A stretch of DNA of 64,000 nucleotides. It comes from a virus. The position numbers were made by a program, and so were the translations under genes. The stretch covers positions 1-64,000 of IMG/VR virus record IMGVR_UViG_3300019889_000166. One strand, 5' to 3'. Below the pieces are notes generated by a model. That model was not told the DNA's origin, searched no databases, and saw only the letters and a list, made by a program, of their open reading frames with translations. Each line of letters opens with the position of its first letter. Position 1 is the stretch's first letter. Below, piece by piece: positions 4,459 through 63,990 of this stretch.

Positions 4459-4862
4459 CGATGCGTCTACTCCCCAGCAGGAACGACCTGCCCCTGCTGT
4501 GGGATGGGCGGGTCGTAGAGTGGCGCGGCTGGTCGGACGGTACGACGACCATGGCGCTGCACAATCCGAAGGAGCGCTGCACCGGGTGCGGATCCAGCGC
4601 TGAGCCAGCGATCAACGCCGGGATCATGGACGCCAAGCAAGGCGAGATGGTCGAGCACGAGCCGCTGAAGAAGACCAAGTCCGGCCGCACGTACCGAGGT
4701 CGGACCATCCTCGTTCCCGCCAATCGCTGGGCGAGGCTGTTCGCCTTCCGATGCCCGGACTGCCAGCAGGACGAGGTGTGGGACAAGGATGCCGACGAGT
4801 GGTGGACGCTGGACGAGTCCGACTACGGCAGCGATGGATCGACCGACCCGCGCCTGTTCTAG
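4455..4862 (+). CDS. Zinc-ribbon-like hypothetical protein (135 aa)
   Basis: Two CxxC knuckles, RCTGCGSS near residue 42 and FRCPDCQQDEVW near residue 99, suggest one structural zinc site formed across the protein. Small zinc-ribbon proteins of this sort are frequent in actinophages and actinomycete integrative elements; their roles are mostly unknown. This is the last gene of the rightward chain, and its stop overlaps by three bases the stop of the convergent GntR gene. Confidence 0.6.
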   Translation: MTMRLLPSRNDLPLLWDGRVVEWRGWSDGTTTMALHNPKERCTGCGSSAEPAINAGIMDAKQGEMVEHEPLKKTKSGRTYRGRTILVPANRWARLFAFRCPDCQQDEVWDKDADEWWTLDESDYGSDGSTDPRLF

Positions 4863-5677
4863 CCCTCGCTGAGGTCGAGCTCCACCTCGTAGTGCAGCAC
4901 GGCGCGATCCCCCGGCGAGATGACCCGTGACGCTTCGACGGGCCGCTCCCCCACCCAGAACACCCGGACCATCGAGATCACCGGTCCGGGTGTTTCCATG
5001 CGCAGCGCCTTGCGTTCGTCGTCGCGGGGCATCCGGGCTTCCGCGTCGTGCGTCACCCGGGTGACTTCGAGCCCGAGGGAGAACAGTTCGGCGATGGTGC
5101 CGCCGGGCCAGGGCTGCTGGCCGGGGTCGATGAGCGGGGTTCCGCCGGCGAGCTTCCACGGGATCGCGGAGCGTTGCAGCTCCATGGGCTGGCCTTTGGC
5201 GTACTTCACGAACCGGCGGCGGAGGAGGTCGGAGCCTTCTGGGAGGAGGAGGCGGCGGGCGTCTTCGGCGGTGGCGGGTTCTTTGGTGACGTGGGCGTCG
5301 ACGGTGTACTGCGGCCAGCTGATGCCGTGGTCTTCGGTGAACGCGGAGGTGAGCGGGTGGGGCTCGCCTGACTTGAGGAGGCGGAGGGTGCGGCCGTAGC
5401 GCTCAGCGTCGATGGGGCGTTGAGGGGGCGTATCCCGGACGCGGGTTGCCGCGCCGCTGCGCTTGACGATCAGGGCTTCGCTTTCGAGGATGCCGAGCGC
5501 GTCGCGGATCGAGCCTCGGGACAGCCCGGTGCCTTCCATCATCTCGGCCTCGCTGGGGAGTTCCTCACCGGGGGTGAGCCTGCCGTCGTCGATCGCTTCG
5601 CGCAGGGACGCGGCTAGCTGACGGTACTTGGGCAGCTGCGCGTGGTGGTCGATCAGCGCGGTGAGGTCGATCGGCAT
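4859..5677 (-). CDS. GntR/HutC-family regulator with UTRA domain (272 aa)
   Basis: Residues about 14-80 are a GntR winged helix (LPSEAEMMEGTGLSRGSIR then DALGILESEALI). Residues about 100-265 fit a UTRA effector-binding domain (LLRRRFVKYAKGQPMELQ, then PVISMVRVFWVGERPVEAS). Length is normal for the HutC subfamily. In actinomycete conjugative elements regulators of this type (KorSA, TraR, Pra-linked) repress transfer and replication promoters. It sits immediately before the transfer-region promoter at 6110-6149 and probably represses it. Its N-terminal domain resembles the truncated regulator at 1-277. Confidence 0.9.
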   Translation of the reverse strand: MPIDLTALIDHHAQLPKYRQLAASLREAIDDGRLTPGEELPSEAEMMEGTGLSRGSIRDALGILESEALIVKRSGAATRVRDTPPQRPIDAERYGRTLRLLKSGEPHPLTSAFTEDHGISWPQYTVDAHVTKEPATAEDARRLLLPEGSDLLRRRFVKYAKGQPMELQRSAIPWKLAGGTPLIDPGQQPWPGGTIAELFSLGLEVTRVTHDAEARMPRDDERKALRMETPGPVISMVRVFWVGERPVEASRVISPGDRAVLHYEVELDLSEG

Positions 5678-13564: not shown

Positions 13565-14521
13565 TTACGCGGTCTGGACGTCGGTCGCGGTGACCGGCGA
13601 GTCGGGGTCGTCCACGAGGCCCTGCACGAGGGCCTTGATGTCGGCGAGCGCCTCGTCCTGCTCGACGTCGCGGAGGCGGTCGGCCTCGGAGCGGATCGCG
13701 TTGCGGTCGTCGGAGTTGCGCTGCTCCTCGATGCCCTGCGCCCAGCGGTCGCCGGTGGACTTGATGAACGCGGCGAGGGTCGTTTCGATGCGGTTCTGCT
13801 GGGCCTTGAGGTCGCTGTACTGGGACACGGTGAGCTCCTCCGTGGGGGGCTTCGGGGTTGTGCCGGGTGGGGTGGTGGGCTTGCCGGGGCCGAAGAGGAT
13901 CGCCTTGGCCTTCGTCTCGATGTAGGACCAGTTGATGTTGCCGGGGTCACCGTGGCTGTTCTCGGGAACGTGCTGGTGGCCGCACCAGCCCTTGAAGTTG
14001 CGCCACTGGTCGAAGCTGAACCGCTGGCTGGCGGACTTCCCGTACGAGGCCGGGTAGGCGCGGAACGACTCCCCGATCTGCTCGGGGCCTTCGACGCGGA
14101 TCTTGTTGACCCGGTACTGGTAGGCGACGAACTCGGCTACCTCGTCGAGCGCCCACTGTGGTGCGGCGGGCCAGTAGATGTGGGCCCGGCCTGCCTTCTT
14201 CCAGCTGTCCGAGGTGGCCTTGTCGCAGGTCCCGACCAGTTCGATCTGGATGCAGTCCTGGGTGTTGGTCTGCACTCCGCCGGACTCGTTGCGCAGAGCC
14301 CGAGCCGACATGGTGTCGGGGAAGTGCTGCGTCCAGACGAGCCGCTTTTGGGTGAAGTCGGGAAGCCCGGTGGCTGTCGGGGCGGTCGCCCCTCCGCCGT
14401 ACCACGGCAGGGATGTGCCCTCGGTGGTGTGGATGACGCCGATGTCAGGGTCGATCGTCGAGCCCTTGTAGTCGTCGGCGAACCAGTACTTGGCTGGCTT
14501 CTGGATGATGGGTGCTGCCAT
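13565..14521 (-). CDS. Endolysin, N-acetylmuramoyl-L-alanine amidase (318 aa)
   Basis: Residues about 20-200 form an Amidase_2/PGRP-type zinc hydrolase that cleaves the MurNAc-L-Ala bond. Probable zinc ligands are H31 (VIHTTEG), a His in the GHQHVPENSHGDPG motif (H182 or H184) and D192. A Pro/Thr linker (about 212-226) leads to a helical coiled C-terminal region (about 230-300) that may bind wall or form oligomers. No signal peptide, so release depends on the downstream holin. Confidence 0.88.
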   Translation of the reverse strand: MAAPIIQKPAKYWFADDYKGSTIDPDIGVIHTTEGTSLPWYGGGATAPTATGLPDFTQKRLVWTQHFPDTMSARALRNESGGVQTNTQDCIQIELVGTCDKATSDSWKKAGRAHIYWPAAPQWALDEVAEFVAYQYRVNKIRVEGPEQIGESFRAYPASYGKSASQRFSFDQWRNFKGWCGHQHVPENSHGDPGNINWSYIETKAKAILFGPGKPTTPPGTTPKPPTEELTVSQYSDLKAQQNRIETTLAAFIKSTGDRWAQGIEEQRNSDDRNAIRSEADRLRDVEQDEALADIKALVQGLVDDPDSPVTATDVQTA

Positions 14522-14542: not shown

Positions 14543-15355
14543 CTACTTGAGGACGCAGACGAGGATCTTGACCTGCGTCAGCGGGTCGGTCGTGGTGACG
14601 GTGAGCTCTTGCAGTTCGCCGGTCATCGCGGCGCACTTCGCCGCCGACGAGTCCGGGCCAGCGGGCCCCTGGTCGCCGGTGGCGCCTTGCGGTCCGGTGG
14701 GTCCAGTGGGGCCGGGCACGGTGCTGTCCGCCCCGTCGGCGCCTTTGCAGTCGTTGCGTTGCGCGCAGTACGACGTGAGGGCCTGGTCGATCATCGTGGA
14801 CAGCCGCTCGTCGCTGACCGGGGGCGCGTCCTTGCCAGCGGCACCGGTCTTCCCGACGCACCTGTCCTCGGTGCAGTACGACGCGACGGAACTCTTGACC
14901 AGGGGTTGGAGCTCGGCCGCAGTCGGGGTGCGCCCATCCTTCGGGCGGACCACCTTCGGTGCGGCGACCCGGGCGATCTGCTCGACCTGGCTCGCGGTGA
15001 GGGTCGGCTGGTAGGTGCGAATCGCGGAGGCGACGATCGTGTGAACGGCGAGTTCTTCGTCTGGAGTGAACTCGTCGGTCTGCGGTGGCGGCGGGGTGGT
15101 GAGGGTCGGCACCGGGACGGGCGCCTTGCCTGCCGCGATGAGCCGCCGGTTCGCTTCCTTCGCCGCGTCGACCGCGCCCTGGGCTTGGAGTTGCGCCTGC
15201 GATGCGGCGGTGAGCGCCTGGTCGGCGGTGGCGCCGTTGGTTTCGACGTCGCCGGACAGGTTGAACACCTGCGCGAAGAGGTAGCCGAAGGTGAGCACGA
15301 AGACGGCAAGGGCCCCCAGCCCGTAGCGGCGCGCGCTGCGGATCTTCCTGTTCAC
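14543..15355 (-). CDS. Membrane-anchored collagen-like phage protein (270 aa)
   Basis: GTG at 15355 overlaps the previous stop (GTGA). A basic start and transmembrane helix (about 12-32) are followed by a coiled region (AASQAQLQAQGAVDAAKEAN), a Pro/Thr linker, two Cys-containing repeats (SVASYCTEDRCVGKTGAAGK and TSYCAQRNDCKGADGADS) and collagen-like Gly-x-y triplets (GPTGPTGPQGATGDQGPAGP). Such proteins are found in the tail-fibre/lysis region of actinophages. It could be virion-associated or a spanin-like envelope protein; I cannot tell. Confidence 0.65.
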   Translation of the reverse strand: MNRKIRSARRYGLGALAVFVLTFGYLFAQVFNLSGDVETNGATADQALTAASQAQLQAQGAVDAAKEANRRLIAAGKAPVPVPTLTTPPPPQTDEFTPDEELAVHTIVASAIRTYQPTLTASQVEQIARVAAPKVVRPKDGRTPTAAELQPLVKSSVASYCTEDRCVGKTGAAGKDAPPVSDERLSTMIDQALTSYCAQRNDCKGADGADSTVPGPTGPTGPQGATGDQGPAGPDSSAAKCAAMTGELQELTVTTTDPLTQVKILVCVLK

Positions 15356-27802: not shown

Positions 27803-28216
27803 TCAGATGTGGAGGCGGTAGATGATCAGCCCGGAGGTCCGGGAGGGAACGACGTTCGTTTCAGTGCGGAAGATGACGTCGTCGAGTGCTTCCTTCAGCC
27901 GCGCGCCGCCTGTAGGTCGCGCGCTAGTGAGCGCCGCGCGGATCCGGTCCAGCGCCCACAGGGCCCGGGTCTTGTCACCGCCGACGATCAGGATTCGGCA
28001 GGTCCACTCGAGGTCCGTCGCGGTGTCTTTGTTGAGGCGGTCCCCGAATGCGTGCCCGCCACCGGGGAAGAACACGGCGTAGGGGTGGACGCGGCCGTCC
28101 TCGTCCTTCGGCGGGTCGGACGGCAGTTCGGTGTCGAACACGTTGAGGTTGGGGATCGCCTGCAGTAGAGCGAGAGTGGCGTCGGCAACCGGGGTGATCG
28201 CAGGCAGCGTCGTCAC
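27803..28216 (-). CDS. Tail terminator-like protein (137 aa)
   Basis: A small alpha/beta protein with the pattern of siphovirus tail-completion proteins: NVFDTELPSDPPKDEDGRVH, AVFFPGGGHAFGD and DLEWTCRILIVGGDKTRALW. Position between the HK97-gp10-like protein and the tail tube gene matches the conserved order in siphoviruses. The terminator caps the tail and joins it to the head. Confidence 0.7.
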   Translation of the reverse strand: MTTLPAITPVADATLALLQAIPNLNVFDTELPSDPPKDEDGRVHPYAVFFPGGGHAFGDRLNKDTATDLEWTCRILIVGGDKTRALWALDRIRAALTSARPTGGARLKEALDDVIFRTETNVVPSRTSGLIIYRLHI

Positions 28217-28575
28217 AGGATCTTCTCCCCGACCTTGCCCATGGCTGTCCCGAACGACGGCTCGTGGGTGTCGACCGCTGGGCCCATGTACGGCTGGGCC
28301 TCCATCCGGACGGACCCGTCGTCGTTGTGGGTCCCCGCCTCGACGTACTTGCCGTACTCGGCGGTGGGACCGATCTCCGCAGTGAGCCCATCAACGTCGG
28401 GGTCTGCGATCGAGCCCATCAGGTGGCCCGTGTCGACCGGGGCGAAGATCATCGCGGTGGCCGCGATGTCATGGGCGGTCTTGCTGACCACCAGATGCGC
28501 CTTCGGCTCCACTCCCGCCGCGCCCTTTTTCAGGTCGCGGTCCAGCTTCCGCAACTCGGAGACGTCGAAGTGCAT
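28213..28575 (-). CDS. HK97 gp10-like head-tail connector protein (120 aa)
   Basis: Contains FAPVDTGHLMGSI and EIGPTAEYGKYVEAGT, the core of the HK97 gp10 family (VDTGxLRxSI then YAxYVExGT). It links the neck to the tail. Four-base overlap with the tail terminator and one-base overlap with the gene before it. Confidence 0.8.
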   Translation of the reverse strand: MHFDVSELRKLDRDLKKGAAGVEPKAHLVVSKTAHDIAATAMIFAPVDTGHLMGSIADPDVDGLTAEIGPTAEYGKYVEAGTHNDDGSVRMEAQPYMGPAVDTHEPSFGTAMGKVGEKIL

Positions 28576-28994
28576 CAGGCCTCCAGATTGTCGCTGCAGA
28601 TGTAGTCGCGCTGGAACAGAAGCGAGCCGCGCTGAATGTCGCGGACAGTCAGTTCGCGGCCGACGAAGGTCGGGTCCTCGCAGGCGGCGACGGTGCCGAA
28701 GTCATCGAGCACGAGGTCCATCGAGACGGGGCCGGACACCTGGTAGTCGTGGCTGGTGATCTTCTCGGCCCCGGCGACAACGGATCCTGCGCTGGTGGTC
28801 TCGTGGTGCTGGATGCGCACCTCGCCGGCGAAGATGACGACTTTCTCCCGGCTGGTCGAGCCGGTGTCCGGGTCGTGCACGGACTCGCCCGTGAACCGCT
28901 CGAACGTGATCGTCGCGGTCCATGTCGTCGTGAGAACGGGCCGGTGGTGAGCGGTCCAGCCAGCCGGAATTACCCGGGATCCTGGGAACGGCAT
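28575..28994 (-). CDS. DUF6093-like head-tail connector (139 aa)
   Basis: ATG at 28994 overlaps the previous stop (ATGA); a longer start at 29018 would run into that gene. The protein is beta-rich (DLVLDDFGTVAACEDPTFVG) and resembles DUF6093/stopper-type neck proteins of actinophages. Position between the adaptor and gp10-like protein is consistent with the head-closure role. Confidence 0.65.
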   Translation of the reverse strand: MPFPGSRVIPAGWTAHHRPVLTTTWTATITFERFTGESVHDPDTGSTSREKVVIFAGEVRIQHHETTSAGSVVAGAEKITSHDYQVSGPVSMDLVLDDFGTVAACEDPTFVGRELTVRDIQRGSLLFQRDYICSDNLEA

Positions 28995-29599
28995 CAGTAC
29001 GGCCAGCCGGAGCGGCACGCGTAAGGCTCGAACTCGGCGATCTCGAAGCCGGACGACTCGGCGTCGCCCTCACCCTGGTCCTCTTGCCTGCGCAGTTCGG
29101 TAGCCTGCGCCCGGAGCGCCGCGGCGACAGCGGGCCCGTCGGTCTGGAGATCCTGGGTGCGGATCTTCTTCGACACCATCGCCTCGTTGCCCGCGATCGC
29201 GTCCAACGCCTGCGCGGCCGCCCGTTTCACGGAGTCGCCATTCATGGCGAGGAAGCGGGCGATCTGCTGCGTCGAGAAGATCCGGTTCGCGGGGTCGGTG
29301 TCGGCGATCAACAGCCGCACGTCCCCCTGCTCCTCGGACGGAGGCGGTGCAGGGTCAGCGTCGGCCGTGTCCCACTGCGTGCCCGCGCCGGTCCCGGTGA
29401 CGATCCACCCGATGTACCAGGTGCCTGCCGCGTCGAGCGGGACCTGCACGGTCCACGACGCGCCGCCACCTGACGGGGTCGGGGTCGCGGGGGTCTCGGT
29501 GCCGTCGGGCGCCCGGACGGTCACGGTCGCGTCTGTCGTCCCATCGAACGGGTCTACGCCGAGGGTGAAGACGGCGATGTCGCCGACGTCATACGCCAT
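28994..29599 (-). CDS. Head-tail adaptor with N-terminal Ig-like domain (201 aa)
   Basis: Residues 1-85 look like a beta-sandwich of the immunoglobulin type (DATVTVRAPDGTETPATPTP; WTVQVPLDAAGTWYIGWIVT). Residues about 90-170 match the helical adaptor fold (DVRLLIADTDPANRIFSTQQ; FLAMNGDSVKRAAAQALDAI). Adaptors form the ring under the portal. An Ig-like domain fused to the adaptor is unusual, but such domains decorate many phage structural proteins. Confidence 0.65.
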   Translation of the reverse strand: MAYDVGDIAVFTLGVDPFDGTTDATVTVRAPDGTETPATPTPSGGGASWTVQVPLDAAGTWYIGWIVTGTGAGTQWDTADADPAPPPSEEQGDVRLLIADTDPANRIFSTQQIARFLAMNGDSVKRAAAQALDAIAGNEAMVSKKIRTQDLQTDGPAVAAALRAQATELRRQEDQGEGDAESSGFEIAEFEPYACRSGWPY

Positions 29600-32297
29600 G
29601 GCTCACCTCCAGTTGGCTCGATGGTTGGTTCCACGCGGTCAGGTCGGACGAGTGCGAGTTGGTCGCGGTCAGCGTGGGTTCGACGGGCGGCACGACTGCC
29701 CCGAACACCAGCTGATAGGCGGCGTCGATCTCGGCGGCGACCCCGAGGGTCCGGGCCTTGGCCGCGGTCAGCGCGGCGGCAGCGTCCGTCTCGGTTGCGA
29801 CGCTGAGGATCACGGTCTTGAACAGGACCAGCGGCCGGGCGAGATCGGTCTCGCTCGCCTGCCCGAGGGTGGTCGCCTTGCTGGCAGCCAACGGCCGCGC
29901 CGTGTCGGTCTCGGTGGCCACTCCGAAGATGGCGCCGGGGCCGGCGCCGGTCGTGATCTCGTGCGCCGCATCGGTTTCGGCGGCGCTGCCGAGCGTGACC
30001 TGCTTGACCCGGAGCAACGCGAACACCGCATCCGCCTCGGAGGCGACACCCAGCACGACGGTCTTGGTCGCGACAACCGCATGGGCAGTGTCGGCCTCCG
30101 ACGCCTGGCCGATGGTGACGGTCCGGGCGTAGGTCGCCGACAGGGCTGCCGCCGCGTCGGTCTCCGTCGCTACGCCGAGCGTGACCTGCTTGCTGGCGAC
30201 AGCGGCCAGCGCTGCGTCGGTCTCACTCGCGGCACTGAGGGTGCGGGCCTTGCTGGCGGTGATCCCGAGCGCGGCGTCCGTCTCGGTAGGCCGGTTGAGC
30301 GTCGCAGCCTTGGAGCGCACCAGCGCCAACGCGGCATCGGTCTCCGTCGCCAGCGCCAGGTCGACGCCGACCGGCGCGACCACGAACTGGCCCGGGTTCG
30401 CGTACAGCCACGCGACGTTGCTCGCACTGAAGGGCGTGTCGAACAAGGTGAGGCTGTCGACATCGGCAACCGCGGCATCACCGCCGGGGTCTCCACCGAC
30501 GTTCAGTTCGGTCGGGACCAGTAACGCCCCCATGGTGTACGCCGCCGACGCTACCCAGACACCGTTGAGGAAGAACTGGATGCTGTTGCCGTTGCAGGAA
30601 GCCGCGACGTGCGTCCAGGTCTCGGCGGTGATCGGCGCCACGGACGGGTTGATGATTCCCGTCGTGCCTCCGGCCCCGTAGAGACGCACCCAGAACAGGC
30701 CACTCAGGCGGCCAGCGTGAGCCACCTCGGTGCCGCCAGCCCGCATCGTCAGGAAGCGTGCGCCTGAGGTGCTGGTGCGGCACTTGACCCACCCGGAGAA
30801 CGCCCACCCCTTGGGGGCCGCCGACCAGTTCACCCCGGATGCCCTACGAGCACCAGCGCCCGCTGCCCCGTTGGAGCCGAGAGCGGACCCCTGCACACCA
30901 GTGACCCAGGAGCCGGCGGCAGTGAGCGTCAGGTTGTTCCCCGCAGGGGAGCGGTCCGCAGCCGCGGTGCCGGTGTTCTCGTTGAACTCGTAGACGCCCC
31001 GGGCAACGTTCGCGGGCTTCAGTGCTGTCTGTGCGACCGGAGCACCAGCCCAGTAGAGATCGGTCGGCGAGTTCACGAAGTTCTTCGTGAACGTCAGGTA
31101 GTCGAAGGTGACCTGGCCGCCCACGGACGCGTCGCCGCCGACGTACAGCACATCGAGGTCCGTGACCGTTGGAGACAGGACCGGCGTCGCGTTCGACGTG
31201 TTCGTGGTCTGCTGCGTCGACGAGTCGAGCCGGATATTGACGTAGGTCGGGTTCATCGCGACCTGGAAGCGGCTCCAGGCGCCGACTGTCAGCACCGACG
31301 CGCTCGTGACCGAGTAGGTGCCGTAGACAGTCACCCAGGTGATCGTGACGGACCTGTCGGTGTTCACCACGACCCGGAGCCGCGAGGACCCGCCTGAGGA
31401 GTCGATCGCCAGGATCGGCGCCGCACTGCCTACGGGCGCCGTGTCGAGCCGGAGCCAGCCGGTGATCGCGAGCCGGTCACAGTCGGGCAGGTTGATCGCC
31501 GCACTGGCCCCGGGGCCAGCGGCGCTGGTCGACAGGGCCCGGCCGTAGAGCCCTGCCGTGTAGCTGCCAGCGGCGGTCTTGGTCAGGTCCCGGTTGTAGA
31601 TGCTGAAGTCGTCCGTTGTGTCGTCATCGAACGGGTAGATCGCCAGCTGGAAGTCAGTCTGCTCGGCCGCCACGATCGCCGCGATGGAGGCTGCCTCGAC
31701 GGGGTCGTTCCACCAGCGGATATCGTCGATGATCCCGTCCAGCGGCTGCGCGCCACTTAACGCGTTCCGTCCGGCGTCCATGGTGACGGCGCCGTTGTAG
31801 GTCAGGGCTGTTGCGGTGGTGGTCGAGAGCACTTGGGTGCCGTCGACGTAGATCTTGACGGTGTCCGTTGCGACAGTTGCGTCCAGAACGACCATCACGT
31901 GGTGGAAGGCGCTGTCACGGATGCTGGTCGACGTCGAGAACGTCACCCCGGCGATCACCGCTTCGACGTTCCCGGAGGCGTTGCTGGCGTACAGCGCCCA
32001 CTTCAACGCTGACGCTGCCGAGGCGGAGGCGATGCACCGCGCTGCCGAGGTGGTGGTGTTCAGCTTCACCCACGCGGCCACGGTCAGGCCGCCGTCGGTA
32101 TTCACCGGGTAGTCGAACTCGCCGATCGGGCCGACGCGCATCGCGCCACCGGTGCAGTTCAGGCCGTTGCCGTACTTGCCGGTCGCTGTCGCAGCCGAGC
32201 CGACGATCGTCCCGGTCAGGAAGTAGCCGGAGAGATCCCGGACCTTGCTCCCGCTGACGGTGTCCGAGTTGAAGGAATACCCCGCCCCTTGGGCCAT
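29589..32297 (-). CDS. LamG-like lectin repeat protein in head gene block (902 aa)
   Basis: Three LamG/concanavalin-like beta-sandwich domains fill residues 1 to about 640, each marked by hallmark pieces such as GLTVAAWVKLNT, HHVMVVLDATVATDTVKIYV, LAITGWLRLDT and ETWTHVAASCNGNSIQFFLN. Then come 11 imperfect repeats of about 20 residues beginning (S/T)ETDAA and ending TLG(V/Q)A (about 645-870), and a short C-terminal tail. LamG domains bind sugars. Location between capsid and adaptor genes, not tail, suggests a large virion-surface decoration or neck fibre. No enzyme motif seen. Confidence 0.7.
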   Translation of the reverse strand: MAQGAGYSFNSDTVSGSKVRDLSGYFLTGTIVGSAATATGKYGNGLNCTGGAMRVGPIGEFDYPVNTDGGLTVAAWVKLNTTTSAARCIASASAASALKWALYASNASGNVEAVIAGVTFSTSTSIRDSAFHHVMVVLDATVATDTVKIYVDGTQVLSTTTATALTYNGAVTMDAGRNALSGAQPLDGIIDDIRWWNDPVEAASIAAIVAAEQTDFQLAIYPFDDDTTDDFSIYNRDLTKTAAGSYTAGLYGRALSTSAAGPGASAAINLPDCDRLAITGWLRLDTAPVGSAAPILAIDSSGGSSRLRVVVNTDRSVTITWVTVYGTYSVTSASVLTVGAWSRFQVAMNPTYVNIRLDSSTQQTTNTSNATPVLSPTVTDLDVLYVGGDASVGGQVTFDYLTFTKNFVNSPTDLYWAGAPVAQTALKPANVARGVYEFNENTGTAAADRSPAGNNLTLTAAGSWVTGVQGSALGSNGAAGAGARRASGVNWSAAPKGWAFSGWVKCRTSTSGARFLTMRAGGTEVAHAGRLSGLFWVRLYGAGGTTGIINPSVAPITAETWTHVAASCNGNSIQFFLNGVWVASAAYTMGALLVPTELNVGGDPGGDAAVADVDSLTLFDTPFSASNVAWLYANPGQFVVAPVGVDLALATETDAALALVRSKAATLNRPTETDAALGITASKARTLSAASETDAALAAVASKQVTLGVATETDAAAALSATYARTVTIGQASEADTAHAVVATKTVVLGVASEADAVFALLRVKQVTLGSAAETDAAHEITTGAGPGAIFGVATETDTARPLAASKATTLGQASETDLARPLVLFKTVILSVATETDAAAALTAAKARTLGVAAEIDAAYQLVFGAVVPPVEPTLTATNSHSSDLTAWNQPSSQLEVSHGV

Positions 32298-32300
32298 GGG

Positions 32301-32765
32301 TCAGCTCGCGGTGAAGAAGCCAGCCGCATTGAAGGCGGCCGTGGTGGCGACGTCGGTGTCGAACGTCAGGGTGCCGACCAGCAGCTGGCACAGCGGGACG
32401 ATGTCAGCGTCGGTGCCACCGGAGGCGTTGTCCCAGCAGACGATCGCGGCGCCCGCGATCTGCGTCGCGCCGGTGTTGGTGTAGCTGGCCGGGTCAGCGG
32501 CGTCGACCGCCATGACGTCGGTGCCGTCGTTCACGGCAGCCACGACGGAGGCGAGGGTGCGGCGGGTGTAGCCGGTGAAGTCGCACTCGTCGTTCGCGGC
32601 AGCCAGGATCAGCGACAGGTTGTCGTAGTCCTTGAGCGTCGCGTCGGACTCGAGCCCGGTCGACTTCAGCCACACCAGGATCAGTGAGTCCGAGGCGTCA
32701 GGCAGGTCCGCGTACCGGGCGACCTTGCCCTTGGCGATGTTGAACGTGAATGCGGCGGTTGCCAT
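32301..32765 (-). CDS. Virion-associated hypothetical protein (154 aa)
   Basis: Sequence MATAAFTFNIAKGKVARYAD onward with LILVWLKSTGLESDATLKDY is a compact domain that I recall from actinophage structural blocks, of unproven role. It comes before the LamG protein gene in transcription, with three bases between. A decoration or neck-whisker protein is possible. Confidence 0.6.
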   Translation of the reverse strand: MATAAFTFNIAKGKVARYADLPDASDSLILVWLKSTGLESDATLKDYDNLSLILAAANDECDFTGYTRRTLASVVAAVNDGTDVMAVDAADPASYTNTGATQIAGAAIVCWDNASGGTDADIVPLCQLLVGTLTFDTDVATTAAFNAAGFFTAS

Positions 32766-32953: not shown

Positions 32954-33172
32954 CTAGCGGCCCGTGACCGTCTTGCGAGTGGTCTTCGAGGCCGCCTTCT
33001 TCGCCGGAGCCATCGCCGCAGGCTTCTCGGCCTGGACCTCAGCCGGCTCATCCCGCGGCAGTTCCGCCGGTTCCGGCGACGGCTCCAGCAGACTCTTGAT
33101 CTGCTGGAGCTCGTCGAGGATCGCGACCTGGATCGCCTCCCCGGTCGTGACCGGCTTGAAGGAGTGGGTCAC
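32954..33172 (-). CDS. Small Lys/Pro-rich protein after the capsid gene (72 aa)
   Basis: Overlaps the capsid stop by four bases. An N-terminal helix (TGEAIQVAILDELQQIKSLL) is followed by a Glu/Pro linker and a basic Lys/Ala/Thr-rich end. The gap from its stop to 32765 (188 bp) shows no gene or clear hairpin. Function unknown. Confidence 0.55.
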   Translation of the reverse strand: MTHSFKPVTTGEAIQVAILDELQQIKSLLEPSPEPAELPRDEPAEVQAEKPAAMAPAKKAASKTTRKTVTGR

Positions 33173-34341
33173 GCGCCCGCGCCGGTGGAGACCGCGGTCG
33201 CGATCATGTCGGTGCCAGCGCCACCCACAACGTGGCGCGCCCGGTACGAGATGTCGTCCGCCTCGAACGAGCCCTCCTCCGGAGCGACCGGACCGCCGCC
33301 GACACGGTTGCCCGCGTCGGCCTTGACGCGCAGGTCCGGGGCCTCGTGTCCACGCAGGAACGCCAGGAACAGCGCCGGTCGCGCGGACGTCGGGGCAGGC
33401 AGCAGGTACCAGGTGGTGTTCACGTTGGCGCCCTTGTCGATCACCGGCAGCCAGGGGTCCACGACCAGCTGAACCCGGCCGGCAACCGAGTTCTTCATGA
33501 TCGTGGTGGTGCTGCCGTTCGTGACCCGGATCTCGATCGCGTCGAGGATCTTCCGGGCCGTGGTCTCGAGCGCCGGCGGCACCACGAGCTTGTAAGCCGC
33601 CACGGCGATCGGCAGTCCCTCGGGGTCGAGCCGCTGCGAGATCGCGTCCAGTGCGGCCTCGAGGCTCAGGTCGGTGAGCACCGGGTTCCCGGCGATCAGG
33701 TTCGACGATCCACCCGAGAACGTGTCAGCGTCGGGGTCGTAGGTGCGGCCCCATGCCGTCGCGTTGAAGATGGCGCTGTTCGGGCCACTGCCGTCGGTCA
33801 ACAGTTTGACCGCTGCGGTGGTCTCAGTGTTCCGGGCCGCGATCGCGAGGTTGCCCGGCAGGTCTTCCAGTTCACCGAGCTCGTCGTTGATGATCGACTC
33901 CCAGGTGATCTGGAAGACGCCACCGTACTTGGAGACGCTGATCCGGTACGGCGCCTTCGAAACCGTCCGGTGCGGGTACTCGGTCCGCTCCGGCACCAGG
34001 TCCAGCGCAGCCCGGCCGCCCATCAGGTCGACGAGCGTCTTCGGCTTGAAGTCGCGCACCGTGGTCCGCTTCGCGTACTGGTCCCACACGGGCGGCAGGT
34101 CCTGGTACCGGGCCATCATCTCCCGGTCGAGAACCTCGAACGCGGCACCGCGGAAGTCGTCGGAGGTCAGCGCCTCCTGGAGGTCCAGCGCGGAGCGCTT
34201 GTTGCCGTGGAACGCCTTGCCCATCAGTCGGGCTGCGGCGACCACTTGGGCTTCGTTGATGCGGCGCGGCCGGGCGAACAACTGGTCGTCGGCCGTGGCC
34301 TCCTCGACGCTCGCGCCGGTGAAGGTCTGGATGGGGCTCAT
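33169..34341 (-). CDS. Major capsid protein, HK97 fold (390 aa)
   Basis: Found directly after the decoration-like protein gene and downstream of the protease/scaffold gene. A helical N-terminal arm (about 1-90) is followed by YPHRTVSKAPYRISVSKYGG and ITWESIINDELGELEDLP, segments typical of the E-loop and P-domain. The central KLVVPPALETTARKIL and end RVKADAGNRVGGGPVAPEEG are hallmarks of large actinophage capsid proteins. No separate delta domain is obvious beyond the N-terminal arm. Confidence 0.85.
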   Translation of the reverse strand: MSPIQTFTGASVEEATADDQLFARPRRINEAQVVAAARLMGKAFHGNKRSALDLQEALTSDDFRGAAFEVLDREMMARYQDLPPVWDQYAKRTTVRDFKPKTLVDLMGGRAALDLVPERTEYPHRTVSKAPYRISVSKYGGVFQITWESIINDELGELEDLPGNLAIAARNTETTAAVKLLTDGSGPNSAIFNATAWGRTYDPDADTFSGGSSNLIAGNPVLTDLSLEAALDAISQRLDPEGLPIAVAAYKLVVPPALETTARKILDAIEIRVTNGSTTTIMKNSVAGRVQLVVDPWLPVIDKGANVNTTWYLLPAPTSARPALFLAFLRGHEAPDLRVKADAGNRVGGGPVAPEEGSFEADDISYRARHVVGGAGTDMIATAVSTGAGA

Positions 34342-34360: not shown

Positions 34361-34720
34361 TCAGTAGCCGAGCTTGACGCGGATGGTGGCGGTCGCGCCG
34401 GACGTGACGGCCGCGAGCGCGTAGCCGAACCGGACGCCGTTGGTGCCGTCCTTGTTGAGCTTCACGGTGTTCGCGGTGTCGTAGTACAAGATGTCGCCGG
34501 CGGCGACAGCGATGTTCGCGTTCGCGGCGTCCTTGCCCTCGACAGCGAGCAGCCACACGCCTTCGGTGTCGACCGACGTGGTTCCGTCGGTGCGCTCGTC
34601 GGTGACGGCGACCGCCGGGATCTGGCCGATCAGGACCGGGTCACCCGACTTCGGAGTGGCTGGCAGGGAGCAGACGACCGAGAGCTTCGTGCCGTCCGCG
34701 AAAACCATGTTCTTCGCCAT
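34361..34720 (-). CDS. DUF2190-type capsid decoration protein (119 aa)
   Basis: Small all-beta protein with the family-typical opening MAKNMVFADGTKLSV, PKSGDPVLIGQIPAVAVTDE and GDILYYDTANTVKLN. DUF2190 proteins stabilise the head or act as head decoration in siphoviruses. It lies between protease/scaffold and capsid genes with short gaps, in the usual place. Confidence 0.8.
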   Translation of the reverse strand: MAKNMVFADGTKLSVVCSLPATPKSGDPVLIGQIPAVAVTDERTDGTTSVDTEGVWLLAVEGKDAANANIAVAAGDILYYDTANTVKLNKDGTNGVRFGYALAAVTSGATATIRVKLGY

Positions 34721-34723
34721 GGG

Positions 34724-35188
34724 TCAGGCCTCCTGGGTCTGGGGCTTGCGGCCGAAGGCCTCGTCGATCGCCCGCTGCGAGTCCGTGCGGGTGGCTTCCT
34801 TCTTCTCGCCGATCGGGCCCAGGCCGCGGACGGTGCCGGCGCTGTTCTCGATGACGGTGGCCAGGTACAGCTCCTGCTCCTTGCGGGCCTCGTCGACCTG
34901 CTTGGAGAAGGTGTCGGTGTCGAGCCGGTTGTCGGACTCGTTCAGCGGGATCTCCCGCATGGCCTCGGCGACGATCTTCTCGACGACCGGGTGGCCGAGT
35001 TCGCTGTTGGCCTCGCGGACCCGCTTCGAACCGAACTCGCGGGCGTACTCGCGGGCCTGCTCGACGGCCAGGTCGTGCTCGGCCTTCTCGCGGCCCGACT
35101 TCTCGGCGGCGAGCTCGGCTTCGAGCACCGGTACCCGGCCGACGGCCTCTTCGAAGGTGCGCAGCTGCGCTTCCTCGATTTGGGGCAT
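34724..35188 (-). CDS. Nested scaffolding protein from internal start (154 aa)
   Basis: The internal ATG at 35188 (TMPQIEEAQL) is preceded by GAGGAGGACACC, a near-perfect ribosome binding site six to seven bases upstream. Translation here yields the C-terminal coil of the protease fusion as a free scaffold, as with lambda C/Nu3. It shares the frame and stop of the longer gene. Confidence 0.65.
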   Translation of the reverse strand: MPQIEEAQLRTFEEAVGRVPVLEAELAAEKSGREKAEHDLAVEQAREYAREFGSKRVREANSELGHPVVEKIVAEAMREIPLNESDNRLDTDTFSKQVDEARKEQELYLATVIENSAGTVRGLGPIGEKKEATRTDSQRAIDEAFGRKPQTQEA

Positions 35189-36352
35189 GGTGTCCTCCTC
35201 GGACTCCGTGGTGGTGGACCCGGCCGGGTTGACCGGGACGTTCTTGGGGGTGGTGGCTTCCTCGGCTGCCATGACGCGGGCGTCAGGGTCGGCCCACAGG
35301 TCGCGCTCGAATAGCTGCGGCGCGGAGGACTGGAGGTTCGTGGTGAACGCGTCGAGGGCGTCGCCGACAGCGGACGAGAGTGAGATCCGCTCATCGCGGG
35401 TGAGCTTCCCGTTGCCGTACATGTCGTCGGCGAGCTGCGTCAGGCAGAGGTGCAGCCGGGACTCGATCCACTGGCCGACATTGCGGGCCTCGCGGACCTG
35501 TAAGAGCGCGGCCTCGCGGGTCAGTTCGACGGTGCGCGCGGCTTCATCGACCGGGACGTAGGTGCGCTTGACGCGGACCTGGACCGGGTCGCCAGTCAGT
35601 TCGACGGCGTCATCGGTCTCCTTGTAAGTCTGCGAGAACGTGCCCGGGTCGTCGCCGCCCCAGCGGTCCCAATAGACGACGCTGTCGTCGTAGTCCTCGA
35701 CCCAGACATCGACACCGTCAGAGGCGTGCGCATCACGGACCGCGTTGCGGAACTTGTCGCGGCGGTCCGAGTCGAGCTCACCGGCCTCCTGCGCCTTCCG
35801 AGCGGACTCCAAGATGAGACCACCACGTCCGGCGTGCGTCACGATGTCGACCGAGTTGAAGGTGCCGGGGTGGATCTTCTCGATGATCCAACCGGAGCGG
35901 CCTTCGGCTTCTCCGATCTCCATCTCCGCAGACGCGCGGACTGAGACGCCGACCGCCTTGCGGAATGCCTCGTCCGCAAGGACCGTCTTGCCGAGACCTA
36001 CCGGCGTGGCGCGAGCGACGAGTCGATTGCCGTCCCAGTAGGCATCCTCGGCCAGGGTTGCAGCGAGATCCTTGACCGACCGCTCCGGCCTGTCGTCGCC
36101 TTCGGATGCAGATGGGTGGTTGAGGTACGAATGGGTTCCCGCCCCCCACACCTTGGCCTTCGCCGCCTCCTGGAGTACCTCGGCGCTGTAGTAGCCGCTC
36201 GACCCCCAGCCAGGCGTGATGATCTGTAGCAGGATCGTTCCGTCGCTGCTTCGCCCGCGCGCTTCGAGGAGCGTGCCTGACTCTTCGAGGTCCTGGCGAA
36301 CGGGGTTCCCCGCCTCACTGAGCGGGGGGGTCTCGGTGGGGCTGGGGGACAT
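34724..36352 (-). CDS. Capsid maturation protease fused to scaffold (542 aa)
   Basis: Residues about 25-185 form a serine protease domain of the prohead type: LLQIITPGWGSSGYYSAEVL, TLAEDAYWDGNRLVARATPV, VGVSVRASAEMEIG and TFNSVDIVTHAGRGG; the S in GVSV is a likely nucleophile. A middle region (about 190-380) is less clear. The last 154 residues are a charged coil (VGRVPVLEAELAAEKSGREK) typical of scaffold. An internal start at 35188 gives the scaffold alone. The longer ORF start at 36565 is rejected because it overlaps the endonuclease gene. Confidence 0.8.
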   Translation of the reverse strand: MSPSPTETPPLSEAGNPVRQDLEESGTLLEARGRSSDGTILLQIITPGWGSSGYYSAEVLQEAAKAKVWGAGTHSYLNHPSASEGDDRPERSVKDLAATLAEDAYWDGNRLVARATPVGLGKTVLADEAFRKAVGVSVRASAEMEIGEAEGRSGWIIEKIHPGTFNSVDIVTHAGRGGLILESARKAQEAGELDSDRRDKFRNAVRDAHASDGVDVWVEDYDDSVVYWDRWGGDDPGTFSQTYKETDDAVELTGDPVQVRVKRTYVPVDEAARTVELTREAALLQVREARNVGQWIESRLHLCLTQLADDMYGNGKLTRDERISLSSAVGDALDAFTTNLQSSAPQLFERDLWADPDARVMAAEEATTPKNVPVNPAGSTTTESEEDTMPQIEEAQLRTFEEAVGRVPVLEAELAAEKSGREKAEHDLAVEQAREYAREFGSKRVREANSELGHPVVEKIVAEAMREIPLNESDNRLDTDTFSKQVDEARKEQELYLATVIENSAGTVRGLGPIGEKKEATRTDSQRAIDEAFGRKPQTQEA

Positions 36353-36366
36353 GTCGCCTCCTGCTG

Positions 36367-37065
36367 CTAGATCAGCAGTGGTTGGTGGGTAGGTGCGGCT
36401 CGGTTGTTCTTCTTGCTGTTGCAGGGGCCGCAGGCCGGGACGATGTTTGCGGCGGTGTGGTGCCCGCCCTTGGAGATGGGCACGACGTGATCCATGGTCA
36501 AGGTGCGCGGCTTGCAGTTGCAGTACGCGCAGCGATGCTTGAACAGCGCCTTCATTTCGGTCCACTGCGCGGCAGTGAAGTCGTTGACTTCGACTGCGCG
36601 GAGGCGAGCCCGCCGGCTGCCGTTCAATGCGCGGATCTTGTCTCGATTCGCGGCGCGGTACCGGCGCCTGTATTCGAGCACCCGATCAGCGTTCTCTGCG
36701 TACCAGCGGCGGGAGTTCTCCAGCGTCAGTTCGTAGTTCGCGGCGCGGTACGCAGCAGTGCGGGCGTTGGCTGCTTCCCGATTCTCTGCGCGGTAGACCG
36801 CCTGAGTGGCCTGCGCCCGTTCCTTGTTCTCCGCGTACCAGTGGCGTGTGTAGTGGCGCCCGCAGTAGCCCTTACCCTGGTGCTTCCGGTCGCACCCGTC
36901 GACCTTGCATCCGATGGTGCGGGGTGAGTTCTGCGGCGGCAGTCGCCGGGGCGGGAGGACTAGTGGGTCGCCACTGTTCTTCCAGCGTCGGTAGTGCTTG
37001 TCGCACCACCCGCGGGCGACACGCTTGCTATCGCATCCGTCGATCGAGCACGTACGATCAGTCAT
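36367..37065 (-). CDS. HNH homing endonuclease (232 aa)
   Basis: ATG at 37065 follows AGAGGTGA; the upstream GTG at 37074 is less well placed. Two N-terminal Cys/His modules (CSIDGCDSKRVARGWCDKHY and CKVDGCDRKHQGKGYCGRHY) are DNA-binding zinc knuckles. A repeated YRAENRE/YRAANRD helical linker follows, then the HNH motif HRCAYCNCKPRTLTMDHVVP and CGPCNSKKNN. It is inserted between MuF and protease genes, a common landing site of free-standing homing endonucleases. Confidence 0.88.
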   Translation of the reverse strand: MTDRTCSIDGCDSKRVARGWCDKHYRRWKNSGDPLVLPPRRLPPQNSPRTIGCKVDGCDRKHQGKGYCGRHYTRHWYAENKERAQATQAVYRAENREAANARTAAYRAANYELTLENSRRWYAENADRVLEYRRRYRAANRDKIRALNGSRRARLRAVEVNDFTAAQWTEMKALFKHRCAYCNCKPRTLTMDHVVPISKGGHHTAANIVPACGPCNSKKNNRAAPTHQPLLI

Positions 37066-46944: not shown

Positions 46945-47038
46945 TCGGTGTGACTGACGGTGTACAAACACCGTGACTAACGGTGTGAGTCACGGTGGTT
47001 GTCACGGGGTGTGTCACGGTGTGACAAACGGCGTGACA
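46945..47038 (-). repeat. Iteron-like array of 12-bp units, candidate replication origin
   Basis: On the complement strand about seven tandem 12-bp units fit the consensus CACACCGTGACT, with variants such as CACCCCGTGACA and CACACCGTTAGT. Each contains the partial palindrome GTGAC/GTCAC. The array lies directly after the stop of the replication-like gene at 47044. In the -1 frame it encodes a repeating H-T-V-T peptide. Iteron arrays next to a replication gene are typical origins. Confidence 0.55.
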
Positions 47039-62962: not shown

Positions 62963-63850
62963 TCAGAGATCTCCGAGGTTGAGCCGCTTGGCTTCCTCGG
63001 CCGCCCGGGCGGATGCCGTAGCCCTGGTGTAGCGATCCAGCATCGAGCGCTGAGTCCAGCCCGCTTGGGCCATGAGACCGCCCTCGGAGCCACCCGCAGA
63101 CAGCCACCTGGTGGCCGACGTGTGCCTGAGTAGGTGCGGGTGGAATCGGTCGATGCCTGCGTGCCGAGCTCGGCGACCCAGTGCGTCCCAGAGGCCGGAG
63201 TAGCGCAGTGGCGCGCCGCGTTCCCCGAGCCACAGGTCGGGCAGCTCTGCGAGCTTGTGGGTGCGGCGGATGCGGAGGTACCGGTCGATGGCCTGGGAGG
63301 TCTTGGGGCCGATGCTGGCGATCCGGCCGCGGCCGCTCTTGGTTTTGCGGAGGGTGACGATCCCGCTGGGGAGGTCAATGTCGATGGGGTGGTGCATGCC
63401 GACGACCTCGCCGGCGCGGGCGCTGGTCTCGACCATCATCCGCATGATGGCCATGTCTCGCCGGTCGATGAACGCGCGGCCGTCGCAGGCTTTGAACAGG
63501 GCGAGCAGTTCGTCGTCAGTGAGTGGCTCGAGCACCTTCTCTGACAGCTTGGGGGGCTTGACGCCGAGGAGCGGGTCAGTGGCCTGTTCTTCCTCGTCGA
63601 GGAGCCAGGCGCTGAAGCGTTTGAGGGCGAGCTGTCGGCTCATGGCGGTGGAGGCCTCGGCGCCGCTGTCGAGCATGGCAGCGATCCAGGCAGCGGCTTG
63701 GCGGCGGTCGATGATCGCGGGTCGGTCTTGCTGGTGGCACCAGGCGAGGTATGCGGTGACTCCGGCGCGGTAGCTCTTGAGGGTTGCGGGCGCCTTCTTC
63801 TCTGCCGTGAGCGTGACCATCCATGACTCGAGCAGGTCCGTGAGGTTCAT
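62963..63850 (-). CDS. int: Tyrosine recombinase / prophage integrase (295 aa)
   Basis: ATG at 63850 is chosen; the frame stays open upstream but overlaps another small gene. N-terminal SAM-like domain (APATLKSYRAGVTAYLAWCH). Catalytic residues R145 (TSARAGEVV), K169 or K171 (RKTKSGRGR), H239-x-x-R242 (HLLRHTSA), W265 (AGWTQRS in place of the usual His) and Y274 (MLDRYTRA). It is the last phage-side gene in the window, beside the immunity region, so it is most likely the prophage integrase. Confidence 0.93.
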   Translation of the reverse strand: MNLTDLLESWMVTLTAEKKAPATLKSYRAGVTAYLAWCHQQDRPAIIDRRQAAAWIAAMLDSGAEASTAMSRQLALKRFSAWLLDEEEQATDPLLGVKPPKLSEKVLEPLTDDELLALFKACDGRAFIDRRDMAIMRMMVETSARAGEVVGMHHPIDIDLPSGIVTLRKTKSGRGRIASIGPKTSQAIDRYLRIRRTHKLAELPDLWLGERGAPLRYSGLWDALGRRARHAGIDRFHPHLLRHTSATRWLSAGGSEGGLMAQAGWTQRSMLDRYTRATASARAAEEAKRLNLGDL

Positions 63851-63855
63851 CGCGG

Positions 63856-63990
63856 TCACGAGAGGGTCGCCCGAAGCTCGTCTGCCTTGCGCTGCGATTC
63901 GATCTGCTGTGGCGTCGGCCTGTCCCAACCAAGCAGATGTCTGACCACTAAAGCCACATGGTCGGACATCGCAAACCATTCTCCGTGCAT
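63856..63990 (-). CDS. Small protein before integrase (44 aa or longer)
   Basis: The frame from an ATG at 63990 ends at 63856, five bases before the integrase start. Peptide MHGEWFAMSDHVALVVRHLL then GWDRPTPQQIESQRKADELR. The frame is still open toward the window edge, so the true start may lie outside. It could be an excisionase fragment or other accessory; no HTH is certain. Confidence 0.45.
   Translation of the reverse strand: MHGEWFAMSDHVALVVRHLLGWDRPTPQQIESQRKADELRATLS

Follow-up and report, generated by a model that had tools for sequence, protein, structure and literature searches.

Comparison with described neck adhesins

The neck passage structure (NPS) of the lactococcal 936 and P335 phages is an optional and modular structure with variable carbohydrate-binding modules (CBMs), in which a constant N-terminal BppU-like anchor is followed by a coiled coil and a C-terminal binding module; the NPS-CBM of PhiA.16 bound host cells weakly, and the TP901-1 NPS was reported to be non-essential and to be expressed with the capsid (PMC6669499). 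The neck fibres of the Anabaena myophage A-1(L) are anchored on a ring below the portal and have a distal carbohydrate-binding module that failed to bind the tested host (PMC10966104). Here we describe a 64,000-nucleotide stretch of viral DNA (the window; positions 1 to 64,000 of the 65,532-base IMG/VR record IMGVR_UViG_3300019889_000166), in which a gene for a 902-residue protein with three LamG domains and a repeat array occupies the slot between the major capsid gene and the gene for a head-tail adaptor that carries a predicted immunoglobulin (Ig)-like domain. We put the probability that this slot gene is a modular neck adhesin cassette of the virion at roughly 0.55.

By analogy, the putative window adhesin would work like a lactococcal NPS that is built differently. 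The NPS has its anchor at the N terminus, whereas in the window protein that end carries the variable head, the putative repeat stalk makes up the C-terminal part, and an Ig-bearing adaptor is encoded alongside; the N terminus is LamG and is followed by a repeat array rather than a coiled coil, which is not the lactococcal layout. The A-1(L) fibres differ in consisting of three proteins (gp82, gp81, and gp80) with the anchor at the N terminus (PMC10966104). If the head points outward and the C terminus inward in the window protein, its polarity is therefore reversed with respect to both the lactococcal NPS and the A-1(L) fibres. Mycobacteriophage Douge is similar in being an actinophage whose virion proteins contain Ig-like domains that bind mycobacterial surface glycans, but these domains are on the capsid and tail tube proteins, and the available part of the report makes no mention of an adaptor Ig domain or a slot adhesin; the Douge adaptor is dodecameric (PMC13033339). 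Given a dodecameric adaptor and glycan-binding Ig domains in Douge, a ring of Ig domains at the adaptor could by analogy either dock the adhesin or itself bind glycans. In the open literature accessible to us, we found no report that places an adhesin slot next to an Ig-bearing adaptor, although earlier work may exist.

The three-gene order of small protein, lectin-repeat protein, and Ig-adaptor is also found in the phages Hiyaa and Galactica. In Streptomyces phage Hiyaa, gp12, gp13, and gp14 are adjacent and upstream of the connector genes, in the same order as in the window, and three parts are homologous: the partner (gp12; 44%, tblastn E = 5e-17), the repeat region (gp13, the phrog_14065 family, which matches window residues 727-880 with E = 7.9e-13), and the Ig domain on the adaptor (gp14, phrog_17896; E = 3e-10). 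The differences are that the Hiyaa protein has other head domains, with no Pfam match and lectin-like by eye, that its repeats are more degenerate, and that the helical domain of the adaptor is divergent and the C-terminal tail of the slot protein is another one. No match to the window LamG head was found in Hiyaa (L067), the best PHROG stretch falling within the repeats. Likewise, none of the remaining proteins tested, the capsid included, matched detectably between Hiyaa and the window, and from this comparison the module has therefore probably crossed between phage lineages. A single C-terminal tail motif for the window-type and Hiyaa-type groups was considered and rejected: a hidden Markov model of five Hiyaa-type tails had no match in seven of the eight window-type proteins and reached 2.2 bits in the remaining one, below the best shuffled decoy at 5.5 bits.

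Slot occupancy and the Ig-like domain of the adaptor

The adaptor gene (28994-29599, minus strand, as are the other head and neck features below) is directly downstream of the LamG gene. Its assignment follows from homology and from its placement after the capsid and ahead of stopper-type genes: the adaptor domain (28994-29335) matches phrog_18316 with E = 6.2e-26, a relative of this domain is annotated "Putative adaptor protein Ad1", and the Hiyaa and Galactica relatives recovered through the Ig part carry an adaptor annotation. Residues 1-88 (29336-29599; phrog_17896) take the form of a beta-sandwich in the AlphaFold2 model (pLDDT mostly 84-94), and the best structural matches of the model are Ig-type filamin repeats (filamin B repeat 1, VIA Z 9.7, root-mean-square deviation 1.9, 77 residues aligned), so that the domain is predicted to be Ig-like; its family E-values to other beta-sandwich domains are weak. 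The Ig domains of the different groups are homologous, with hhalign values of 99.6% for the Hiyaa type and 98.4% for L094/L095/L122, and they occur with filled slots on three adaptor types.

An adhesin-like gene lies directly upstream of the adaptor at 16 of 16 loci whose adaptor has the Ig domain and at 1 of 24 whose adaptor lacks it (Fisher 2.7e-10), and the association holds within the window-type group (8/8 versus 1/24, Fisher 8.6e-7) and after merging of near-duplicates in that group (8/8 versus 1/20, Fisher 2.9e-6), with the reservation that these values ignore the relatedness of the loci and overstate their independence. Eight actinobacterial genomes (of 394), searched after the idea had been formed, gave the same picture, with the slot occupied in 4/4 Ig-positive and 0/4 Ig-negative cases (Fisher 0.029). 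The Ig-positive loci are the window, L002, L071-L076, L094 (where the slot protein is esterase-like, phrog_8480), L095, Hiyaa, Galactica, L118, L119, L120, and L122. The Ig-negative set comprises the loci L077-L080, L092, L093, L115, L116, L117, and L121 and the cultured phages TripleJ, LuckyBarnes, Montesquieu, MinS1, Yappy, Jojan60, CN1A, L4768, D_HF5_3, Molivia, Amigo, BIM BV-113, JustBecause, and Nonagon, which are the 14 phages examined from an adaptor search that returned 43 phage records. The sole occupied Ig-negative locus is that of Nonagon, with a protein of 1008 residues annotated "minor tail protein; pyocin knob". Whether a gene counted as adhesin-like was decided, in part by eye, from its length, its repeats, and any resemblance to lectin, esterase, or jelly-roll sequences; open reading frames (ORFs) of 46-130 residues were excluded from the count, and in JustBecause 18 reverse-strand genes lie between. 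Spocter and Keanu, which hold both genes, are outside the tally, and L087 and L091 were left out of it.

Exchange of the slot contents

A scan with the adaptor returned 10 loci and a scan with an adaptor alignment 17, mostly on the same contigs, and every locus was examined. The adaptors of L071-L076 are 69-92% identical to that of the window, Ig domain included, and the genes in front of them are of several kinds. The L071 slot holds a 152-residue partner and a 479-residue protein with a head lacking a Pfam match and 11 units of the window (ETD) type; L073 has a 152-residue partner and a 443-residue protein with one LamG domain and 10 units; L072 has a 180-residue partner of another family and a 745-residue protein with 14-residue TTW repeats; and L074-L076 have a third partner type and proteins of 357 to 449 residues whose repeats, of a third type, recur every 20 residues, the L075 protein having one LamG domain and the L074 slot an extra ORF of 331 residues. 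The C-terminal tails of the L071-L076 and window proteins are nonetheless alike, with "...SS.LE[VA][ST]H.." in most. At L074 the capsid and cement proteins are 91% identical to those of the window and the slot content is unrelated, and the comparison therefore argues that the slot undergoes exchange in place and is an exchange hotspot. LamG-type or concanavalin A (ConA)-like heads are common among slot proteins, and a 20-residue period is common to several repeat types (ETD in the window, LSGxG in L074, and the L095 type), which hints at a common rung-like repeat structure.

Nor is the window gene a recent insertion in this phage alone, since other IMG/VR contigs, Hiyaa, Galactica, and four of the eight actinobacterial genomes in which the adaptor was matched have relatives or analogues of it at this position. 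The first-pass annotation, made from the window alone, had missed the adaptor Ig-like domain, the 154-residue partner gene, and the cassette exchange.

The 180-residue partner family (L004 396-941, L072 5228-5770, L070 4995-5543; phrog_13135 in L072 and L005) spans siphophage-type and SU10-type slots, and its homologue KVP40.0353 sits between the gp15 and terminase genes in Vibrio phage KVP40. In the Curtobacterium phage Nonagon, gp38 (L104 923-3949) encodes a knob plus SGNH-like protein between capsid and adaptor, which is an independent instance of an adhesin-type gene in the slot beside an adaptor without Ig.

The LamG-repeat protein of the window

The gene at 29589-32297 starts with ATG, encodes 902 residues, and has a coding-type G+C distribution over the three codon positions (0.61/0.56/0.88). 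The three sugar-binding-type domains first noted in it hold up, with Laminin_G_3 (PF13385) matching in three stretches (E = 1.6e-35; 122.9 bits against a curated cut-off of 27.6). The domain edges are approximate: domain 1 takes up about residues 1-212 (31662-32297; best Pfam stretch 67-206, with strands predicted at moderate confidence), domain 2 about residues 213-425 (31023-31661; Laminin_G_2 at 302-388, predicted strands), and domain 3 about residues 426-640 (30378-31022; the three PF13385 stretches and predicted strands). A signal peptide was not apparent by eye.

Residues 650-873 (29679-30350) form 11 repeat units of about 20 residues with spacings of 20, 20, 20, 22, 20, 20, 22, 20, 20, and 20, and the identity at lag 20 in the repeat protein is 0.372 against a shuffle maximum of 0.218 (0 of 2000 shuffles reach 0.372). 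The number and length of the units agree with the initial description of eleven (S/T)ETDAA repeats, but this exact motif is present in some units only, the core common to 11/11 being E-[T/A/I]-D. The expectation that the repeat number varies among relatives is borne out, as L002 has 8 units, L073 10, and L071 11 (including one degenerate unit each in L071 and L073). The slippage proposed as the cause is not supported by the DNA, in which the window units have a mean identity of 55% (maximum 73%, longest common word 19 nt) and the repeat region contains no array according to Tandem Repeats Finder; the units thus appear to be old at the DNA level. The short C-terminal tail "...PSSQLEVSHGV" (29589-29678) is similar in 6/6 of the loci L071-L076 despite differing head and repeat types. 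The LamG and adaptor genes share 11 nt (29589-29599) where the first ends and the second begins, and just before the adaptor start the end of the LamG gene contains a GGAGG Shine-Dalgarno-like motif (29606-29610).

Searches of phage records by tblastn with the whole protein and with the repeat part gave no match, a result that a low-complexity filter masking the repeats may explain, and with the LamG head alone gave weak matches only (E at least 0.2).

The LamG head in other phages and in Kribbella

A viral scan with the LamG protein recovered four contigs (L002-L005). L002 has the same head module as the window, followed by its eight units. In L003-L005 the triple LamG is 66-75% identical to the window head and the C-terminal half is different, its repeat being (R)xTTW, with units spaced by 14 or 17 in L004 and L005, and its C terminus a different one that matches phrog_8987 in L005; the capsid of the L005 phage belongs to phrog_1357 and its adaptor is of the SU10 type. 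When 13 other window proteins, from terminase to tape measure, were compared by tblastn with the short contigs L003 (8.7 kb) and L004 (7.2 kb) and with L009 (21.9 kb of the L005 contig), none matched, and the head alone did. Because these phages share only the head and differ in repeats and C terminus, the C-terminal half would therefore go with the phage type, and the head would not. At about position 3033 of L003 there is an in-frame stop within the third LamG domain, either a real pseudogene or a sequencing error.

A genome scan found the LamG head in three Kribbella genomes. Among 38 Kribbella genomes, five (L006, L007, L008, L021, and L022) have a full-length head with no repeat array (open frames of 655-658 residues, protein of 654-655) and one (L023) has a partial copy; sampling 391 genomes from the order brought up no others than these six. 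By eye, the surroundings of the L006-L008 heads look non-phage, and a gene of about 130-150 residues with a phage-type domain (phrog_27064 for L008) precedes the Kribbella head, suggesting the possibility that the Kribbella triple-LamG is a host-domesticated phage head. An Ig-adaptor prophage was found in 0/38 Kribbella genomes, a result that is uninformative as a clue to the host.

A proposed neck adhesin and the alternatives to it

In the neck adhesin reading, residues 1-640, with three LamG/ConA-like jelly rolls, would be an exposed ligand-binding head, the ligand most likely being a cell-wall or extracellular glycan of an actinobacterial host, and the C-terminal repeat array and short tail would be the stalk and virion anchor. 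A ring of Ig-like domains on the adaptor, whose start overlaps the gene, would most likely fix the adhesin to the head-tail junction, and the 154-residue protein would act as a partner in the base, the collar, or assembly. Recombination would exchange heads, repeat types, and partners and leave the capsid and neck genes in place. The repeats and C terminus, which follow the phage type, probably contact the virion, and the head, which is common to phage types and Kribbella, probably contacts something host-related. The surface or neck fibre first proposed for the gene is partly supported, being the best reading and one that the comparative evidence strengthens; the mycelium or extracellular polymer first suggested as its target would be a candidate ligand. 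More tentatively, and at odds we consider somewhat unfavorable, the adaptor Ig domains of actinobacterial phages may form a plug-in system to which interchangeable adhesins dock through the repeat stalk at their C terminus with the tail tip unchanged, the heads (lectin, esterase-like, or other jelly rolls) being swapped as a cassette even between siphophages and unrelated phage types and occurring by themselves in Kribbella genomes as well.

Several observations weigh against a neck adhesin docked in this way, in addition to the overstated independence of the loci. Nonagon has an adhesin without an Ig adaptor and L005 a LamG protein with an SU10-type adaptor, so that Ig is not required to keep an adhesin in the slot, and L087 and L091 have filled slots with an N-terminal adaptor extension in which Ig is unconfirmed (hhalign probability 0.3, two sequences). 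The Hiyaa-type and window-type tails are unalike, giving no single docking motif across the Ig-bearing groups; within the window-type group L002 retains just the last residues, LEVSHGI, of the common tail; and the LEVSHGV of the window overlaps the adaptor Shine-Dalgarno motif and start and may be conserved for that reason. The repeats, moreover, were left unmodelled by AlphaFold2, which for the whole protein with 7 sequences reached a mean pLDDT of 42 and in the repeats one of about 22, and we make no claim about their structure from it.

Among the alternatives, a fibre decorating the capsid surface on capsomers or vertices would account for a gene 3' of capsid and cement, and the small partner of L074 and L076 matches phrog_240, "head protein"; we nevertheless regard it as rather unlikely, because L005 pairs the LamG head with an unrelated capsid, occupancy tracks the adaptor Ig domain, and relatives of the same capsid family without the adhesin exist. 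Occupancy with Ig also argues against a misplaced gene for a component of the distal tail, whether a minor tail protein or a receptor-binding protein, as do the constant adjacency to the adaptor and the window's own tail-fibre-type genes at 13.5-15.4 kb. The Hiyaa, Galactica, and Nonagon proteins are annotated "minor tail protein", but these are names rather than tests, and although the Pam4 homologue of the 154-residue partner adjoins a polysaccharide lyase in the tail region, a distal tail position seems to us a little less plausible still than the capsid.

The slot might instead be a neutral recombination hotspot in which Ig hitch-hikes within one exchanged DNA block, for which the adaptor start and preceding DNA conserved in L071-L076 would be a plausible recombination anchor. 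Ig accompanies occupied slots on three adaptor types, however, and the contents are adhesin-like time after time, which makes neutrality improbable in our estimation. Least probable is a non-virion product, such as a moron-like adhesin or a secreted factor of the lysogen. It would fit the integrase in the window and the repeat-less triple-LamG that stands alone in 5/38 Kribbella genomes, with apparently non-phage surroundings in L006-L008, but the LamG gene is on the same strand as an essential-type neck gene and overlaps it, no signal peptide is apparent by eye, and the repeat stalk is missing exactly where no other phage gene is seen.

Searches for host-range determinants usually focus on the tail tip; if the slot does hold adhesins, tools limited to tail-fibre loci overlook them, and adaptor neighbours now called "minor tail protein" or "hypothetical" would need re-reading. 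Such phages could then be recognized in genomes simply by an Ig-bearing adaptor, and docking with reversed polarity is a testable mechanism.

Gene order and other features of the window

The window has a G+C content of mostly 66-70%, and a megablast search with 22 kb of it gave zero matches. An integrase is encoded at 62963-63979, and the phage is therefore probably a temperate actinophage. The placement of the LamG gene between capsid and adaptor genes, apart from the tail fibres, was correctly described at the outset. In order of transcription, the genes encode a head maturation protease-like protein (34724-36565), the cement or decoration protein (34361-34720; PF09956), the major capsid protein (33169-34341; PF25209), a 72-residue ORF (32954-33172; no Pfam or PHROG family match), the 154-residue partner (32301-32765; phrog_26662; homologous to Hiyaa gp12 and Galactica gp10), the putative neck adhesin (29589-32297; ORF, PF13385 three times, phrog_14065), the adaptor, a DUF6093 neck protein (28575-29018; Pfam), an HK97 gp10-like neck or tail completion protein (28213-28575; Pfam and PHROG), another small gene product, the tail tube, and the tape measure. 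The 154-residue and other partner proteins match only unknown families or a generic head protein in PHROG and Pfam. Of the tail-fibre-type genes, one (14543-15355) is collagen-like with a hydrophobic stretch at the N terminus and is near an endolysin-like gene (13565-14521). Elsewhere in the window there are a GntR/UTRA regulator gene (4859-5677) on the strand opposite to its neighbours and a tandem array of a 12-base unit in about 8 copies with 69% matches (46946-47037).

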